A stretch of DNA of 34,306 nt from Nocardioides sp. (GTDB lineage Bacteria; Actinomycetota; Actinomycetes; Propionibacteriales; Nocardioidaceae): NCBI GenBank assembly GCA_025964835.1, contig JAOPYB010000491.1:1-34306 (forward strand), written 5' to 3'. A model generated the notes under the pieces. It saw only the letters and a program-made list of their open reading frames with translations. It did no database searches and was not told where the DNA came from. Shown one piece after another: positions 3,087-11,683 of this stretch (its first letter is position 1; each line of letters starts with the position of its first letter). The translations under genes and the position numbers were made by a program.

Positions 3087-4358
3087 TCAGTCTTGCTCGA
3101 CTACGACGTTCCACCGGTCGGTGAGCTGTTGGATGCCGACCGCGATGCTGATGCTCGAGCAGCTGCCCGCCTCGAAACCTGCGGTGTCAGATGGGCAGGA
3201 TACGGAGTTCAGGCCTCCTGAGTGGATTCCGCGTGCGCCGACACTGCCGTCCGCTCGCTCGACGTAGACGGGCGCCCCGCTGTCTCCGCCTGTCGTAGTT
3301 ACCCCAGAGCCGGAGTACACGAACCCGGAACAGTTGGTGGTCGTGCCGGGGCAGTTGAACTCGACCCCTGTGTTGGTGATTGTTCTGTTGCAGCGTTCGC
3401 CGGTGTTCGCTCCTGACACGCATACCGTGTCGCCGACTGACGGCGCTGCGGACCCGCCGACGTGGAACTGGTAGCGCGCGTTGCCGGTACCGGCGTCCCA
3501 GGGCCCGCCAAACACCTTTCCGATCGTGGCCGGGGATGCGGGTGGGTCAATGAGGAGCGAATCATAGTTCGGTGCCCACTGCATGTCCCCGTTGTTCGCG
3601 ATGAGGTCGCCTCCACCGTCATTCACTCGGGTTGTCGCCTCGTTCTCGCCGTTCAATTTGCAGTGTCCGGCGGTGAGAAGGCGCCCCTCGCCGCCGGTTG
3701 TGAGCACCGAGAAGCCTGAGGTGCAGACGTTGTGCAGGTTCGTTCCCGGGAAGTGGAGTTGGCCACCGCCTTGCCAGGGGGACGAGTCATTCCGCCTGGT
3801 TTGGAAGTCGACAGCCTGGCCACTTCCGATCTCTACAGAGACGCCTGCTGCCTTCTGGTAGTCGTTGATCAGGGCTGTAGCGGCCTCGAGTTGCTTCGGG
3901 TCGACGTTGGCGATCAGTCCTGAGTAGTCCTTGTTCTTGAAGATCGTGTTGATCAGGGGGCCGTCTAGCAGCCGACTGGTATCCATGAGTGCTTGTGCGC
4001 CTGCATGAAGTTCGGGCTCGCTGTACTTCGTGGGCACGATCTCGACACGCACGCCGTCGGCGTTCGGTGCCTGGGCGGCCAGCGCGTCCTCTGGTGGCGT
4101 GCCCTTGTAGTAGAGCGTGACGATGCGGGTGTCGAAGTCGAGAGCCGTGTAGGCGTACCCCGCGTCGTTGTAGTGAGCGGCCATGGCGTCCGCTACGTCT
4201 CGTACCTGGTCCATGGAGACCAAGACCGGGTCGAGTTCCTTGGGCGGTGTGAAATCGCCGCCTTCTTCGGCCGCGGACGGTGTCACCATGGCCGCGAATC
4301 CAAGTAGTACACCGCTCAAGCCCAGCGCTATCGCTGCTGCATGTCGTCGCCTGTTCAA
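3087..4358 (-). CDS. Secreted S1-family serine protease with pro-region (alpha-lytic/streptogrisin-like)
   Basis: Signal peptide MNRRRHAAAIALGLSGVLLGFAAMVTPSAA; LLTAGHC (His) and TTGGDSGAPVY (Ser) motifs; ~150-aa pro-region. Confidence 0.88.
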   Translation of the reverse strand: MNRRRHAAAIALGLSGVLLGFAAMVTPSAAEEGGDFTPPKELDPVLVSMDQVRDVADAMAAHYNDAGYAYTALDFDTRIVTLYYKGTPPEDALAAQAPNADGVRVEIVPTKYSEPELHAGAQALMDTSRLLDGPLINTIFKNKDYSGLIANVDPKQLEAATALINDYQKAAGVSVEIGSGQAVDFQTRRNDSSPWQGGGQLHFPGTNLHNVCTSGFSVLTTGGEGRLLTAGHCKLNGENEATTRVNDGGGDLIANNGDMQWAPNYDSLLIDPPASPATIGKVFGGPWDAGTGNARYQFHVGGSAAPSVGDTVCVSGANTGERCNRTITNTGVEFNCPGTTTNCSGFVYSGSGVTTTGGDSGAPVYVERADGSVGARGIHSGGLNSVSCPSDTAGFEAGSCSSISIAVGIQQLTDRWNVVVEQD

Positions 4359-4454
4359 TACCCCGATCCCATCCCTCCCGAGTCGACCTACTGTCGCGTC
4401 GGTCTTGACGAGGATGAAACCGCTTCGAAGACGAACTGTCTACGGGTGACGAAG

Positions 4455-5159
4455 TTACTGGAAGGCCACCTTCTCGCCGACACGGACGTGGACAGAAACG
4501 TTGGCGACGCTTTCGAGGCTCTCGGACAAGGCGTCGAGGTCGCGTCCCTTGGCGTCCTGCTCACCGATGTACACGACAATTCCAGACAGGTCGTCGGTCT
4601 TAGTGACGTAGTTGACTTCGACTCCGAACTGCGGCCCGCTGTCGGCGACGCGCTGGGCTGCGTCGGAGAGCTCCGCGTCGCTGTACGCCGCAGAGCGAAG
4701 CTCGACTGTGACTCCATTGTCGTCCGTCCCGACCGCTTCCATCACTTGCGAGGGCGCGGGGCCCTTCCACCAGACGGTTACTGTGCGGGTGCCGAAGTCG
4801 AGCGCCACAGAACCGAATCCAGGGGCGCGGTACAGGCTGGCCAAGGGCGCCGCTGCGTCGCGCACCTCGTCCCGCGACCGCAGCTCCGGGCGCTGAGATG
4901 ACGAAGTCGACGTCCCGTCGGGGGCGGAGAGGGGCGAGTGCGCCGGTGAGGCCGGCTTCGGCCCCGGCGACCAGTACGTGCCGGCCGCGTAGCCAGTGCC
5001 GGCGATGATCACCACCGCCGCCGCGGAACCAATGACAATGTGGACTTTCCGCCTGTCTGATCTCGTCGGGTAGTTGACGCCGTGGGATCTAAAGGGTGGA
5101 GCTTCGTCTGCGATTTGCCGAAGCACCTGCGCGAGCCGTGTTTCCTGGGTCGGAGACAT
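4455..5159 (-). CDS. Single-pass membrane protein in anti-sigma position; ectodomain similar to the pro-region of the adjacent protease
   Basis: Short N-terminal segment, TM VHIVIGSAAAVVIIAGTGYAAG, P/S/T-rich linker, then DEVRDAAAPLASLYRAPGFGSVALDFGTRTVTVWWKG...; starts 3 nt after the sigma gene stop. Confidence 0.8.
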   Translation of the reverse strand: MSPTQETRLAQVLRQIADEAPPFRSHGVNYPTRSDRRKVHIVIGSAAAVVIIAGTGYAAGTYWSPGPKPASPAHSPLSAPDGTSTSSSQRPELRSRDEVRDAAAPLASLYRAPGFGSVALDFGTRTVTVWWKGPAPSQVMEAVGTDDNGVTVELRSAAYSDAELSDAAQRVADSGPQFGVEVNYVTKTDDLSGIVVYIGEQDAKGRDLDALSESLESVANVSVHVRVGEKVAFQ

Positions 5160-5162
5160 TGT

Positions 5163-5684
5163 CTAGACCCCTCCTGATTCATCGAGTAAATCTTCCGCGA
5201 GTTGGTCTCGAAGCCTCGTACGTGCTCGAGCGAGCAGGCTTCGGACAGTGGACGGACCGCAGTGCAGGGCTTCGGCAATGTCGGCGTCGTTGAGGTCTTC
5301 GTAGTAGCGAAGGATGATGACGGCCCGTTGCCTAGGCTTGAGGTGCTGGAGTGCCTGACGCACTGCTTCACGTTCAATCACGTCGTCGGCGACTCCCGCT
5401 TCGGCTATTGGCGTCCAGAGTCGAAGCGCGGCCTTTGCCAGAGGTAGCCGCCGCTGTTCGTTCAGAAACAGGTTGAGCAGGGACCGGCGGGCGTAGGCGA
5501 GTGGGTGTTCGATGTTGGCGAAGTCCGTCTTGGCGATGCTGACCAGCGTGTCTTGGACGAGGTCCTCGGCACTGTGCGCGCTTCCTGTCAGCAGGTAGGC
5601 ATGCCGCATGAGTGCGTCGCCGTGTCGGGCGGCGAACGCCCCTAGGTCTGTCTCGCGCCCTGCGTGGGTTTGGCTCATCATCAT
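5163..5684 (-). CDS. SigE-family ECF RNA polymerase sigma factor
   Basis: LVQDTLVSIAKTDFANIEHPLAYARRSLLNLFLNEQRR...LKPRQRAVIILRYYEDLNDADIAEALHCGPSTVRSLLARARTRLRD: sigma region 2 and 4 motifs. Confidence 0.9.
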   Translation of the reverse strand: MMMSQTHAGRETDLGAFAARHGDALMRHAYLLTGSAHSAEDLVQDTLVSIAKTDFANIEHPLAYARRSLLNLFLNEQRRLPLAKAALRLWTPIAEAGVADDVIEREAVRQALQHLKPRQRAVIILRYYEDLNDADIAEALHCGPSTVRSLLARARTRLRDQLAEDLLDESGGV

Positions 5685-6306: not shown

Positions 6307-7515
6307 CTACTTCATCCCGTCGAGCAGGCGCGCGAATGCAGCTTCGGTGACTACTGGAATGCCGTAACTGCGGGCCTTAGCTGCCTTGCCGCTTTGGGAA
6401 TCGGGATCGGCGGCCACCACGATGCGAGTGCTCTTGTTGACGCCCCCGTGCCTGAGACCAGCAGCCTCGGCACGCTGCACCCATTGCTCACGGGGCACCG
6501 AGAGTTCGCCGGTGAAGACCACCTGATCGCCGCGAGCCAACTGAAACGTCGCACGTGCCGGCGCCTTGGCCCGTTCGGCCCGCTCCAGCGCGACATGGAC
6601 GAGGCGACGTGGGAGTCCGAGCATCTCGGCGACGCTCAGCAACTGTGCCGCCTCATCTTCGGTGACGACGCCGTCTTCCCAGGCTGCGATGGCCATCGAG
6701 TCCAGGAAGGTCGCGTGGAGAGCGGTGATCTGGTCGCGGTGCAGCCCGAGTTCCACGGCCACCTCAATGAGGGCTTTTTCCTCGTGGGCCGACAGGTAGC
6801 CGTCGAGCATCGCGTGCTCGAGCACCGCCAAGTAGGCCTCGATCCGCGGATCCGGATTCCGGGGCAGGTGGGACGTGATCCGATCCAACCAAGCATCTGG
6901 ACGTCGTACTCCGGCGCCCCTGAGGAACGTCCGTACGGTTGCGGCGGTCTGCACCGGCGGCCAGGTGTGCTCGCGGCTGAATCTGTTGGTGTCATCCCAC
7001 GGCACCGGCACGCCGCACCGGCGCATGTAGTGCAACAGCAGCCCCGCGACAGCGCGCGCATCACCGAGCGCAGTGTGCTCTGCGACGTGGTCGACGCCCG
7101 CGGCTGAGCAGCAGTCCTTCAGCTTCCGAGAAGCACCCCGCAGGAACCGAGCCGACCACTGCATCGTGCACAAGGACGGCGTCGGCGGGGTGGTGGCGAG
7201 GCCGGCGCGCGCGAACTCATAGTCCAGGAACGAGGTGTCGAAGCGGGCGTTGTGCGCCACCATCGTCTTGCCGACCAGCGAGCTGATCACCAGTGGGGCC
7301 ACCTCGGCGAAAGTCGGCGCATCCAACACCTCACGCGCCGTGATGCCGTGGATGTGCGTCGGCCCAACATCGCGCTGTGGGTTCACCAGCGTCGACCATT
7401 CCTGCTCGATGTGACCGGCGTCGGACACCGTGACGATGGCGATCTCAACGATCCGGTCATGCTGTTGCGGGAAGAGTCCCGTTGTTTCCAGGTCCACGAC
7501 TGTGTACCCGCTCAT
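6307..7515 (-). CDS. DEDDh 3'-5' exonuclease (DnaQ-like) with C-terminal BRCT-like domain
   Basis: MSGYTVVDLETTGLFPQQHDRIVEIAIVTV...HNARFDTSFLDYEF...HTALGDARAVAGLLLHYM; C-term VVFTGELSVPREQWVQRAEAAGLRHGGVNKSTRIVVAADPDSQSGKAAKARSYGIPVVTEAAF. Upstream Met at 7692 judged unlikely. Confidence 0.88.
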   Translation of the reverse strand: MSGYTVVDLETTGLFPQQHDRIVEIAIVTVSDAGHIEQEWSTLVNPQRDVGPTHIHGITAREVLDAPTFAEVAPLVISSLVGKTMVAHNARFDTSFLDYEFARAGLATTPPTPSLCTMQWSARFLRGASRKLKDCCSAAGVDHVAEHTALGDARAVAGLLLHYMRRCGVPVPWDDTNRFSREHTWPPVQTAATVRTFLRGAGVRRPDAWLDRITSHLPRNPDPRIEAYLAVLEHAMLDGYLSAHEEKALIEVAVELGLHRDQITALHATFLDSMAIAAWEDGVVTEDEAAQLLSVAEMLGLPRRLVHVALERAERAKAPARATFQLARGDQVVFTGELSVPREQWVQRAEAAGLRHGGVNKSTRIVVAADPDSQSGKAAKARSYGIPVVTEAAFARLLDGMK

Positions 7516-7778
7516 GTCCACCCCCGGGTGATCGACTCGATCAGCCACGGTAAGTCGGGGCCACCCGCCGCGCAGCGGTTTCAGACGGATCGGGAATCGC
7601 CCTGTCATCATGCCGCCGAGTGAGTCGGCGTTAGAGGAACGGTCTGAGGGCGGCGCTCGGCTGACCATCCAAGAACCGTCGTGATCCCGCAATGGATCCC
7701 GAACCGCTACGGCCGCGCGGACCGCGACTGCGGGCGCATCGGCGAGGGTTTCAGGGGCACTGACTCAGGACGGCCTCA

Positions 7779-8355: not shown

Positions 8356-8877
8356 CCGCTCATCGCGCGCCGGCGTCGTCGGACCCGGCCACTGGTTCCG
8401 GTGCCGCTCGACGAGATCGCTCATCCCGTCATCACCAGCGCCCTATTGCTGCCAGAAGAGCGAGACGCCCGGCGGGGCCGAGTGCGTGGTGCTTTCTGAC
8501 CGCGTCTGGTTCAAGGTCAGGACACCTGACCACCGGGCGGCCGCTACCGAACTTCGTCCAGATGAGGTTCCGAACTGGACCCCACCGAGCCGGGGCTTGG
8601 TGGACCCGGCGGTAAACCTCAGCTGCCGGAAGACCCGCCCGTTCATGGCCGACTCGCCGCATGCGGCCAGCGGAGTTCCCAACTGCTCCGCGTGAACCGT
8701 GCCGACCGGCATCTGAGCGTCTGGGCCCGGGTTCGAACGAGCGTGGCGAGCTACGACCACCCATACGGGGGGTTGCTGCATCATCGTTCTCCCTCTGGCG
8801 CGCCGACTCACGCGGAGTTGGCGAATCGCCGTTGCGTGGCCGTCACCAAATGTTGGGGCGCACATCACAATCTGATA

Positions 8878-8893
8878 TTGACATCGAAGTCGG
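8878..8893 (+). promoter_or_regulatory. Operator-like site 1 (TTGACATCGAAGTCGG) upstream of transporter operon
   Basis: Matches shared motif GATNTTGACATC...GTC; right arm imperfect. Confidence 0.65.
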
Positions 8894-8970
8894 ATTTGTG
8901 CCAAGGTGCGGCGTCCCCAGATGTGGCGGAGGACACAACTCGGGCCCACACCCACGCGAAAGGCAACAAG

Positions 8971-10050
8971 ATGCGCAAGTTCGGACTCGGCCAGAAGCAG
9001 GTCCTGTTCATCGCCGCAGCAGTGCTCGCCGGCGCCTCACTCTCGGCCTGCACCAGCAGTGCCGACGAGAAGAACAAGGACAGCTCCTCCAGCGACAAGA
9101 GCAGCAGCAGCGCCGACACCGGTGCGGCTGCCGACGTCAACGACCTCACGGTCGGGCTCATCTCGCACAACATCGCGTCCCCGGGCATCAAGCTCTACCG
9201 GGACACGTTCACCAAGCTGGCCGAGGATCGTGGGTGGACCGTCAAGAGCGTCGACACGGCCGGCGACGTGGTCGCCGCGGTCAACCAGACCAAGCAGTGG
9301 GTTGACGAGGGCGTCGACGTCATCGTCAACGACACCGTGCCGAACGACCTGATGTCAGACGGCATCGCTGCCGCCGGGGACGCCGGCATTCCGTGGTTCT
9401 CCGTCTCCGCCGGTGGCGGCGTCGACGGCGTGACCAACGAGGCCGAGGCCAACGAGTACGCCAGCGGCTCCCAGCTCGGTCTCGCCATGGTCGACAAGAT
9501 GGGTGGCAAGGGCAACATCCTGCGGCTCACCTGGAGCGGCCTGCAGTCGATTCGCGAGCGCGCCGCGGCGCTGGACGCGATCGTCGCGACTCGTCCTGAC
9601 GTCAAGATCGTCGACACGATCGAGCTCAAGGTGCCCGGCTGGGCCGACGACGCGTACAAGCAGGTCACCAACTACCTCCAGACGCACGACGACGTCGACG
9701 CGATCTGGATGCCGTGGGACGACTTCGCAGTCGACGTGAGCCGAGCGGTCAAGGAGTCCGGTCAGGACAACATCTTCATCGGCGGGTTCGACCTCGACGA
9801 CTCGGCTGCCGACGCGCTGCGCTCCGGTGGCGCCTTCCAGATGACGAACGCCTTGAACATCCCGGCGATGGCCTCGCTCCAGGTGGACCTCATCGCCCAG
9901 CAGGTCTCCGGAACCGACGTGCCCGCGATCTCCTACGTGCCGAACTGCCTGGCGACGCCGGACAACATCCCGGCACAGGGTGGACGCGACTCCGCGGCGT
10001 TCTGGACCGCCTGCTACGAAGCGCCCCTCAAGCTGGTCGCAGGCAGCTGA
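8971..10050 (+). CDS. Sugar-type ABC transporter substrate-binding lipoprotein
   Basis: MRKFGLGQKQVLFIAAAVLAGASLSACTSS lipobox; periplasmic-binding-protein-like LTVGLISHNIASPGIKLYRDTFTKLAEDRGWTVKSVDTAGD. Start reassigned from 8692. Confidence 0.88.
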   Translation: MRKFGLGQKQVLFIAAAVLAGASLSACTSSADEKNKDSSSSDKSSSSADTGAAADVNDLTVGLISHNIASPGIKLYRDTFTKLAEDRGWTVKSVDTAGDVVAAVNQTKQWVDEGVDVIVNDTVPNDLMSDGIAAAGDAGIPWFSVSAGGGVDGVTNEAEANEYASGSQLGLAMVDKMGGKGNILRLTWSGLQSIRERAAALDAIVATRPDVKIVDTIELKVPGWADDAYKQVTNYLQTHDDVDAIWMPWDDFAVDVSRAVKESGQDNIFIGGFDLDDSAADALRSGGAFQMTNALNIPAMASLQVDLIAQQVSGTDVPAISYVPNCLATPDNIPAQGGRDSAAFWTACYEAPLKLVAGS

Positions 10051-10099
10051 CCGAACGCCGCAGCAAGCACGCGAGCCCTGGGTAGGAGATGACGAGGCC

Positions 10100-11683
10100 A
10101 TGACGGAGATGTCGACGGTGAGTAGCACGAACGCACTCGCGCCGGTGCTGGACGTCAGGGACCTGGTCAAGGACTACCCAGGGCAGCGTGCGTTGGACGG
10201 CGCCAGCTTCGAGGTGCTCCCGGGAGAGATCCACGGGCTCCTCGGGGAGAACGGCGCGGGCAAGTCCACGTTGATCAAGTGCGTTGCCGGCGCGATCCGG
10301 CCGACGAGCGGAGAGATCCGCGTCGGCGGTGAGGTCGTGACGCCTCGGTCCGCGAAGGATGCCCACGACCTCGGCATCAGCATCATCCACCAGCAGTCGA
10401 ACCTCGTCGACACGCTGTCGATCGCCGACAACCTCGCCATCGGCGCCGGCGCCGGTCTGCTGATCCGCCCGCGAGCCGAGCGGCGGCAGGTGCGCGAGGT
10501 CCTGGACGGGGTAGGCCTGGACCTCGACCCGCGCACCCTGGTGTCGAGCCTGCGCCCGCACGAGAGCGCCATGGTCTCGGTGGCCAAGGCGCTGCACGCC
10601 CAGGCCCGTTTGATCATCCTCGACGAGCCCACCACGGCCCTGGCGGCCGAGGAGACCGACGTGCTGTTCGGTCAGATCCGAGCTCTGGCAGCCAAGGGCG
10701 TGGCCTTCGTCTACGTCTCGCACCGCCTCGGTGAGGTGTTCCGCCTGGTCGACCGAGTCACCGTGCTGCGCTCCGGTCGTCGGATCGGGACCTGGGAGCA
10801 ACCGGCCCAGCACCAGACCGCGATCATGGACGCGATCGTCGGCGACAAGGTGCCCCAGCGACCCGAGACCTCGTCGGGTCCTGACCGCGGCAATGTCGTC
10901 CTCGATGTCAAGGCGCTCGCCGTCGACCCCTGCGAGTCCGTGACCTTCGAGGTTCATGAGCACGAGGTGGTCGGGCTTGCGGGACTCACCGGTTCAGGCG
11001 CCGAAGAGGTGGCCACCGTGCTGTCCGGGGCGAGCAGCTCGCGCGGAGGGTCGATCGCGGTCCGCGGCAAGCAGACCCGCCTCAGCTCCCCGCGCCGCTC
11101 GATCGGCGCCGGCATCGCGACGATCCCCAAGGACCGCCACCGGGAGGCGCTGCTGCCGGGATTCTCGATCCTCGAGAACGCGAGCCTGGCCTCCTCCGGC
11201 CGCTTCCTGACCGACCCGGTGACGCGCACCGTTCGTGGCAGGCGGGAGCGGAAGTCCGTCGTAGCGGCCATGGAGTCCCTGCGTGTCAAGGCGACGGGTC
11301 CTCAGCAGAACGTCTCCACCCTCAGCGGCGGCAACCAGCAGAAGGTCGTCATCGCGCGCTGGCTGCTGGAGCACTTCTCCACCTACGTCTTCATCGACCC
11401 CTGTGCGGGCGTCGACATCGGCGCCAAGGCCGAGATCTACAACATCATCCGACAACGCGCCCGTCACGGCGCGGCCGTCGTCTTCACGTCCTCGGAGCCC
11501 GAGGAGTACCAGCGGGTCTGCGACCGGGTGCTGGTGTTCCACCAGGGCCGGATCGTCGCCGACCTCACCGGTGCCGACATCGCCGAGGCCACGATCGTCC
11601 GCTACTCCCTCGACCCACCGGTCGAGGCCGCCAGTCCCCGACCCGCCACGCCGGCCCCGGAACAGAAGGAAGTCGTCTCATGA
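10100..11683 (+). CDS. Sugar-type ABC transporter ATP-binding protein (tandem ABC domains, RbsA/MglA-like)
   Basis: Walker A GLLGENGAGKSTLIK; LIILDEPTTAL; second domain LSGGNQQKVVIARWL. Confidence 0.92.
   Translation: MTEMSTVSSTNALAPVLDVRDLVKDYPGQRALDGASFEVLPGEIHGLLGENGAGKSTLIKCVAGAIRPTSGEIRVGGEVVTPRSAKDAHDLGISIIHQQSNLVDTLSIADNLAIGAGAGLLIRPRAERRQVREVLDGVGLDLDPRTLVSSLRPHESAMVSVAKALHAQARLIILDEPTTALAAEETDVLFGQIRALAAKGVAFVYVSHRLGEVFRLVDRVTVLRSGRRIGTWEQPAQHQTAIMDAIVGDKVPQRPETSSGPDRGNVVLDVKALAVDPCESVTFEVHEHEVVGLAGLTGSGAEEVATVLSGASSSRGGSIAVRGKQTRLSSPRRSIGAGIATIPKDRHREALLPGFSILENASLASSGRFLTDPVTRTVRGRRERKSVVAAMESLRVKATGPQQNVSTLSGGNQQKVVIARWLLEHFSTYVFIDPCAGVDIGAKAEIYNIIRQRARHGAAVVFTSSEPEEYQRVCDRVLVFHQGRIVADLTGADIAEATIVRYSLDPPVEAASPRPATPAPEQKEVVS

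Follow-up and report, generated by a model that had tools for sequence, protein, structure and literature searches.

The window analysed here is a stretch of 34,306 nucleotides of Nocardioides DNA, taken from a draft genome of 3.56 Mb in 546 contigs that is 72% complete. Three genes lie in a row on its minus strand, at the positions where a first-pass annotation had placed a sigma/membrane-protein/protease operon. A SigE-like ECF sigma factor (5163-5684, 173 aa) is followed after 3 nt by a one-TM membrane protein, which is a putative anti-sigma factor (4455-5159, 234 aa), and after another 96 nt by the precursor of a secreted S1 protease of streptogrisin/alpha-lytic type (3087-4358, 423 aa, TTG start). 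Inspection of the sigma and protease upstream regions in five genomes yielded no convincing common promoter motif. The window also encodes a protein with exonuclease (RNase_T), TerB-like, and BRCT regions (6307-7692), and sugar-type ABC transporter genes, with a Peripla_BP_4 binding protein preceding the ABC ATPase (8692-11683).

The sigma factor is composed of sigma region 2 and region 4.2 (Pfam Sigma70_r2, 3.5e-8; r4_2, 5.8e-17). It scores 124.7 bits against TIGR02983, the SigE-family ECF sigma model, which is under the family cut-off of 141.55, and hence we refer to it as SigE-like only. The membrane protein consists of a cytoplasmic helix (aa 3-18), a basic stretch, a TM helix at about aa 41-59, a Pro/Ser-rich extracellular linker (aa about 60-90, predicted to be disordered with an AF2 pLDDT of about 50), and an ectodomain (aa 91-234; 4458-4889, minus strand). 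The N-terminal flank of the TM helix is positively charged, consistent with an N-in/C-out topology. Its position directly behind the sigma gene, the single TM helix, and the inward N-terminus give the gene the layout of an anti-sigma factor. The cytoplasmic N-terminus comprises ~38 residues with one predicted helix and no Cys, and only a weak match to the NCBIfam model NF052375 'antisigma' was obtained (E=8e-4, 19.4 bits, cut-off 100). As these 38 residues contain no canonical anti-sigma domain, neither the zinc HxxxCxxC nor the four-helix ASD type, binding of the stem to the sigma factor is something we infer. In the same genome, several other SigE-like sigma genes are followed by similar short basic one-TM stems bearing unrelated ectodomains. 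A common stem with varied ectodomains behind sigma genes is the look of sigma/anti-sigma pairs, and the pro-domain-like ectodomain described below would therefore be the exchangeable sensor part.

The protease precursor is divided into a signal peptide, a pro-region (about aa 41-186; 3801-4238, minus strand), and a mature domain. With a chymotrypsin-type sequence and a conserved catalytic triad (His in TAGHC, Asp in YDSLL, and Ser in GDSGAP), the mature domain belongs to the streptogrisin/alpha-lytic group of S1 peptidases. Profiles of streptogrisin B (2.9e-8) and alpha-lytic protease (5e-6) match it, while the protease by itself gives no Pfam match. The poor AF2 model obtained for this domain was left out of the analysis. 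Beyond the protease lie fragments of a TrwC/MobF relaxase (1547-2233) and a phage-type integrase (1290-1589), and in the MAG REDSEA-S33_B3 a full TrwC relaxase adjoins a related, frame-broken protease (L101, 2661-5420). The protease may travel with mobile elements.

Homology of the ectodomain and the protease pro-region

The ectodomain and the pro-region were proposed in the first-pass annotation to be alike and collinear, and the alignment bears this out. BLASTP places ectodomain residues 91-234 on pro-region residues 44-186 with 34% identity over 145 aa (77.4 bits, E=6e-21). Scores of 500 shuffles averaged 31 and reached at most 54, well below the raw score of 202 (z=31). The matching C-terminal ends that had been remarked on are also found: the ectodomain stops after VAFQ, at the equivalent of the inferred pro/mature junction, which lies between VDFQ and TRRND in the protease. 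Neither Pfam nor NCBIfam has a family for the ectodomain or the pro-region.

We then compared the predicted folds. Between aa 91 and 227, most of the AF2 model of the ectodomain exceeds a pLDDT of 90, and the model runs through the order helix-strand-strand-helix-strand twice. Its two halves align with each other collinearly but weakly (P=7e-4). The pro-region model has a pLDDT of about 67-87 over most of its length, and its main elements are ordered as in the ectodomain; the two models share overlapping alignments and are not fully independent. In Foldseek searches of 350,542 PDB chains, the first match of the ectodomain model is 4pro chain D, an alpha-lytic pro-region (E=8.7e-5, prob 1.00), and the leading matches of the pro-region model are 4pro, 3pro, and 2pro (prob 1.00). 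Hence, on one of the points by which the proposal was to stand or fall, both AlphaFold models lead to one fold. The ectodomain is an old copy of the protease's presumed built-in inhibitor domain.

Recurrence of the trio and pairing within loci

The domain is present in 25 of the 220 genomes of the genus, in 35 of the 346 genomes of the family (searched with another profile), and in 26 of the 395 genomes of the class sample; the phylum sample contributed no further copies outside the class. Sigma factor, TM protein with the domain, and protease stand side by side in four Nocardioides loci, so the triad whose recurrence had been suggested as a check is found at three loci besides the window. In N. 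alcanivorans NGK65 (L053/L099), the sigma and membrane genes overlap and the protease is convergent. In G257 (L156), order and strand are as in the window, the ectodomain consists of the second half only, and the pro-region has a frame break. In G084 (L054), the protease is convergent and its 5' part is missing, toward a neighbouring IS transposase. The anti-sigma gene layout is conserved in all three. G223, a genome close to G257, retains the sigma factor and the membrane protein with no protease behind them. The broken protease frames in G257 and G084 may reflect a decaying pathway or assembly errors. Aside from L156, a half-domain version occurs in L056. A scan with the protease alignment retrieved only seven loci, and a single-protein scan of the genome contigs gave no matches.

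The domain also occurs in other contexts. About ten Nocardioides genomes encode a sigma-linked protein of ~330 aa that contains it. In one group of these loci (L031, L034, L036, L038, L040, L041, L045, and L155; the others are L014 and L032), a SigE-like sigma gene precedes a one-TM protein with the domain and an extra N-terminal region. Of all the genomes encoding the ~330-aa protein, only G257 (L031) gave a match to a protease with the pro-region in question. The domain alone is therefore no proof of protease binding, and the argument for a protease link is carried by the short-ectodomain group, in which the genes are adjacent and the domains pair. Lipoprotein or secreted copies of the pro-domain that stand alone adjoin proteases with the same pro-region (L080, 114-2043; L096, 2-2103; L016, 27-2025; L100, 4161-6294), L055 being listed with L016 as such a locus, and copies of this kind are found outside Nocardioides as well, elsewhere in the class. 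In another family (G759; L159, 645-1927), the gene after a SigE-like sigma gene encodes a TM protein of 243 aa whose ectodomain is pro-domain-like, and no protease was found within the 8 kb examined.

We inspected how closely each ectodomain is related to the protease beside it. A tree built from 63 domains joins the window ectodomain to the pro-region of the window protease (99/95), the N. alcanivorans ectodomain to its own pro-region (99/96), and a stand-alone secreted copy from the MAG Bin_68_4 to the neighbouring protease (100/98). Ectodomain and neighbouring pro-region are reciprocal best matches in the window, N. alcanivorans, and G257, and are not in G084. This reciprocity, seen at three of the four trio loci, indicates that ectodomain and pro-region evolved as a pair. 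Where an accessory domain adjoins a protease, the local protease is the best of 28 in five of the eight loci scored. The ectodomains of G257 and Bin_68_4, like that of the window, stop within a few residues of the inferred junction.

Comparison of the window with N. alcanivorans shows two layers of relationship. Local pairs score 202 and 218, compared with 159 between the two ectodomains, 149 between the two pro-regions, and 124 and 130 for the cross pairs. The identities follow the same order (35% and 36% locally, 28% for each of the ectodomain and pro-region comparisons, and 22% across), and so do the site patterns (34 local, 22 orthologous, and 9 cross). Therefore, both a signal of shared descent between the two ectodomains and a signal of local matching are present. 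This double signal would be expected from one old duplication followed by co-evolution or gene conversion, and also from repeated duplication. In AU tests, a single clade for the window and N. alcanivorans ectodomains was not rejected (p=0.18), and the hypothesis that the eleven sigma-linked copies all go back to one origin was rejected (p=4e-8). Separate duplications for these two ectodomains, favoured by the bootstraps, were dropped on account of the former p value and the mixed site patterns. A remnant of the mature N-terminus in the N. alcanivorans ectodomain (SWPFQ vs APWQG) was also considered, and the local alignment lent it no support. The sigma factors of the window, N. alcanivorans, and G257 group together weakly (88/78, plus one own paralogue), apart from the sigma factors of the ~330-aa group.

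A tethered pro-domain as a candidate protease sensor

Gene order, homology, predicted fold, recurrence, and within-locus pairing are established here. The pro-region of alpha-lytic protease is a foldase; where it contacts the mature enzyme, a beta-sheet is continued from one to the other, and the pro/mature junction runs over the active site (PMC2829044). As the ectodomain ends at the equivalent of this junction, a product-like hold on the mature enzyme, and with it an occupancy signal, is possible. The membrane protein would thus be a tethered, in-trans copy of the pro-domain. The protease would leave the cell as a zymogen, and after processing, some free mature enzyme would be held at the cell surface by the ectodomain, whose C-terminal tail may act as a product-like inhibitor in the active site. 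Binding, or its loss when external substrate fills the enzyme, could be signalled via the single TM helix and the cytoplasmic segment to the SigE-like sigma factor encoded next to it, by which expression of the operon would be adjusted.

Our best explanation, with a probability of about 0.5, is that the mature protease is bound by a membrane-tethered pro-domain, which in turn adjusts the activity of the sigma factor. Of its parts, binding of the mature protease is likely, as homology and the position of the C-terminal end in the sequence point to it, and control of the sigma factor by the membrane protein is reasonably probable. We lean slightly toward a negative, product-level feedback. The cell probably uses the tethered inhibitor copy to detect its own secreted enzyme. 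The fuller picture, which we hold tentatively and at a little under even odds, is a self-sensing circuit: the pro-domain was duplicated onto the regulator of the protease-controlling sigma factor, the cell meters free extracellular protease, and within each lineage co-evolution or gene conversion keeps pro-domain and sensor in step. The short cytoplasmic segment with neither a canonical anti-sigma domain nor a zinc motif, the unpaired G084 locus, the broken protease frames of G257 and G084, the ~330-aa type mostly lacking a protease match, and the lack of a common promoter motif count against the best explanation. As most genomes with the ~330-aa type give no match to a pro-domain protease, a sigma-linked protein can make use of the pro-domain even where no such protease is encoded.

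The ectodomain might instead shield the cell surface from the protease or fold it in trans, with no sigma control and with a gene position that only ensures co-expression. The stand-alone copies beside proteases (L100, L016, and L080), which have no sigma factor or cytoplasmic part, agree with such an immunity or foldase role, and so does the foldase function of the alpha-lytic pro-region (PMC2829044). Yet the ectodomain is repeatedly found on a basic, N-in TM stem directly after a SigE-like sigma gene, and the like stems with unrelated ectodomains behind other SigE-like genes of the genome are a sigma/anti-sigma layout; we regard this role as unlikely. To a similar degree, we doubt that ancestry is all that the two domains share. 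In that case, the double-half domain would be an extracellular fold common in actinobacteria, and the ectodomain would by now read another signal. The clade of ~330-aa sigma-linked proteins, mostly without a detectable pro-domain protease, and the half-domain versions (L156 and L056) would fit this, but with a ligand unrelated to the protease, one would not expect the close adjacency seen in four loci or the reciprocal best matches in three of them.

The mature enzyme could also act as a site-1 protease, cutting the tethered pro-domain or the Pro/Ser linker, such that the anti-sigma factor is destroyed and feedback is positive. Mature enzymes of the alpha-lytic/streptogrisin class are expected to degrade their own pro-regions, and the linker is predicted to be disordered. 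However, the compact ectodomain fold, predicted with high confidence, and its pro-like C-terminal tail fit binding at least equally well, and we consider such cleavage improbable, more so than the two preceding alternatives.

The predicted fold of the window pro-region and ectodomain is that of the pro-regions of alpha-lytic protease and streptogrisin (2pro, 3pro, and 4pro), whereas identity in the structural alignments is only 12-20% and a Pfam match is lacking. Different from the alpha-lytic pro-regions, the domain described here is also found apart from a protease, as part of a sigma-linked membrane protein. Pro-domain relatives that exist apart from their peptidase are found among PepSY and inhibitor I9-type proteins. 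These are different families from the window domain, and we know of no tie between them and an ECF sigma factor.

The combination of an ECF sigma factor and a membrane regulator with an enzyme-related or enzyme-binding ectodomain is a known arrangement; its pro-domain version was not found described in the open-access literature searched, mainly on sigma or anti-sigma factors. The ectodomain of the anti-sigma factor RsiV senses lysozyme through binding (PMC4183432), and sensing by enzyme binding therefore exists. The RsiV system and the window have in common an ECF sigma factor, a membrane regulator, and an ectodomain that binds an enzyme, or in the window is expected to. RsiV reads a foreign enzyme, whereas the presumed ligand in the window is the operon's own protease, and the window ectodomain is homologous to the pro-region of that enzyme. 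In the SigI-RsgI systems of Clostridium thermocellum, anti-sigma ectodomains have carbohydrate-binding or hydrolase-type modules like those of the controlled secreted enzymes (PMC6056542). There the shared module reads the substrate, whereas in the window it is the enzyme's pro-domain. If the reading is true, the enzyme would be measured directly after export, with its own pro-domain reused as receptor. A function could then be suggested for a domain that lacks annotation although proteases, lipoproteins, and sigma-linked membrane proteins throughout the class carry it.
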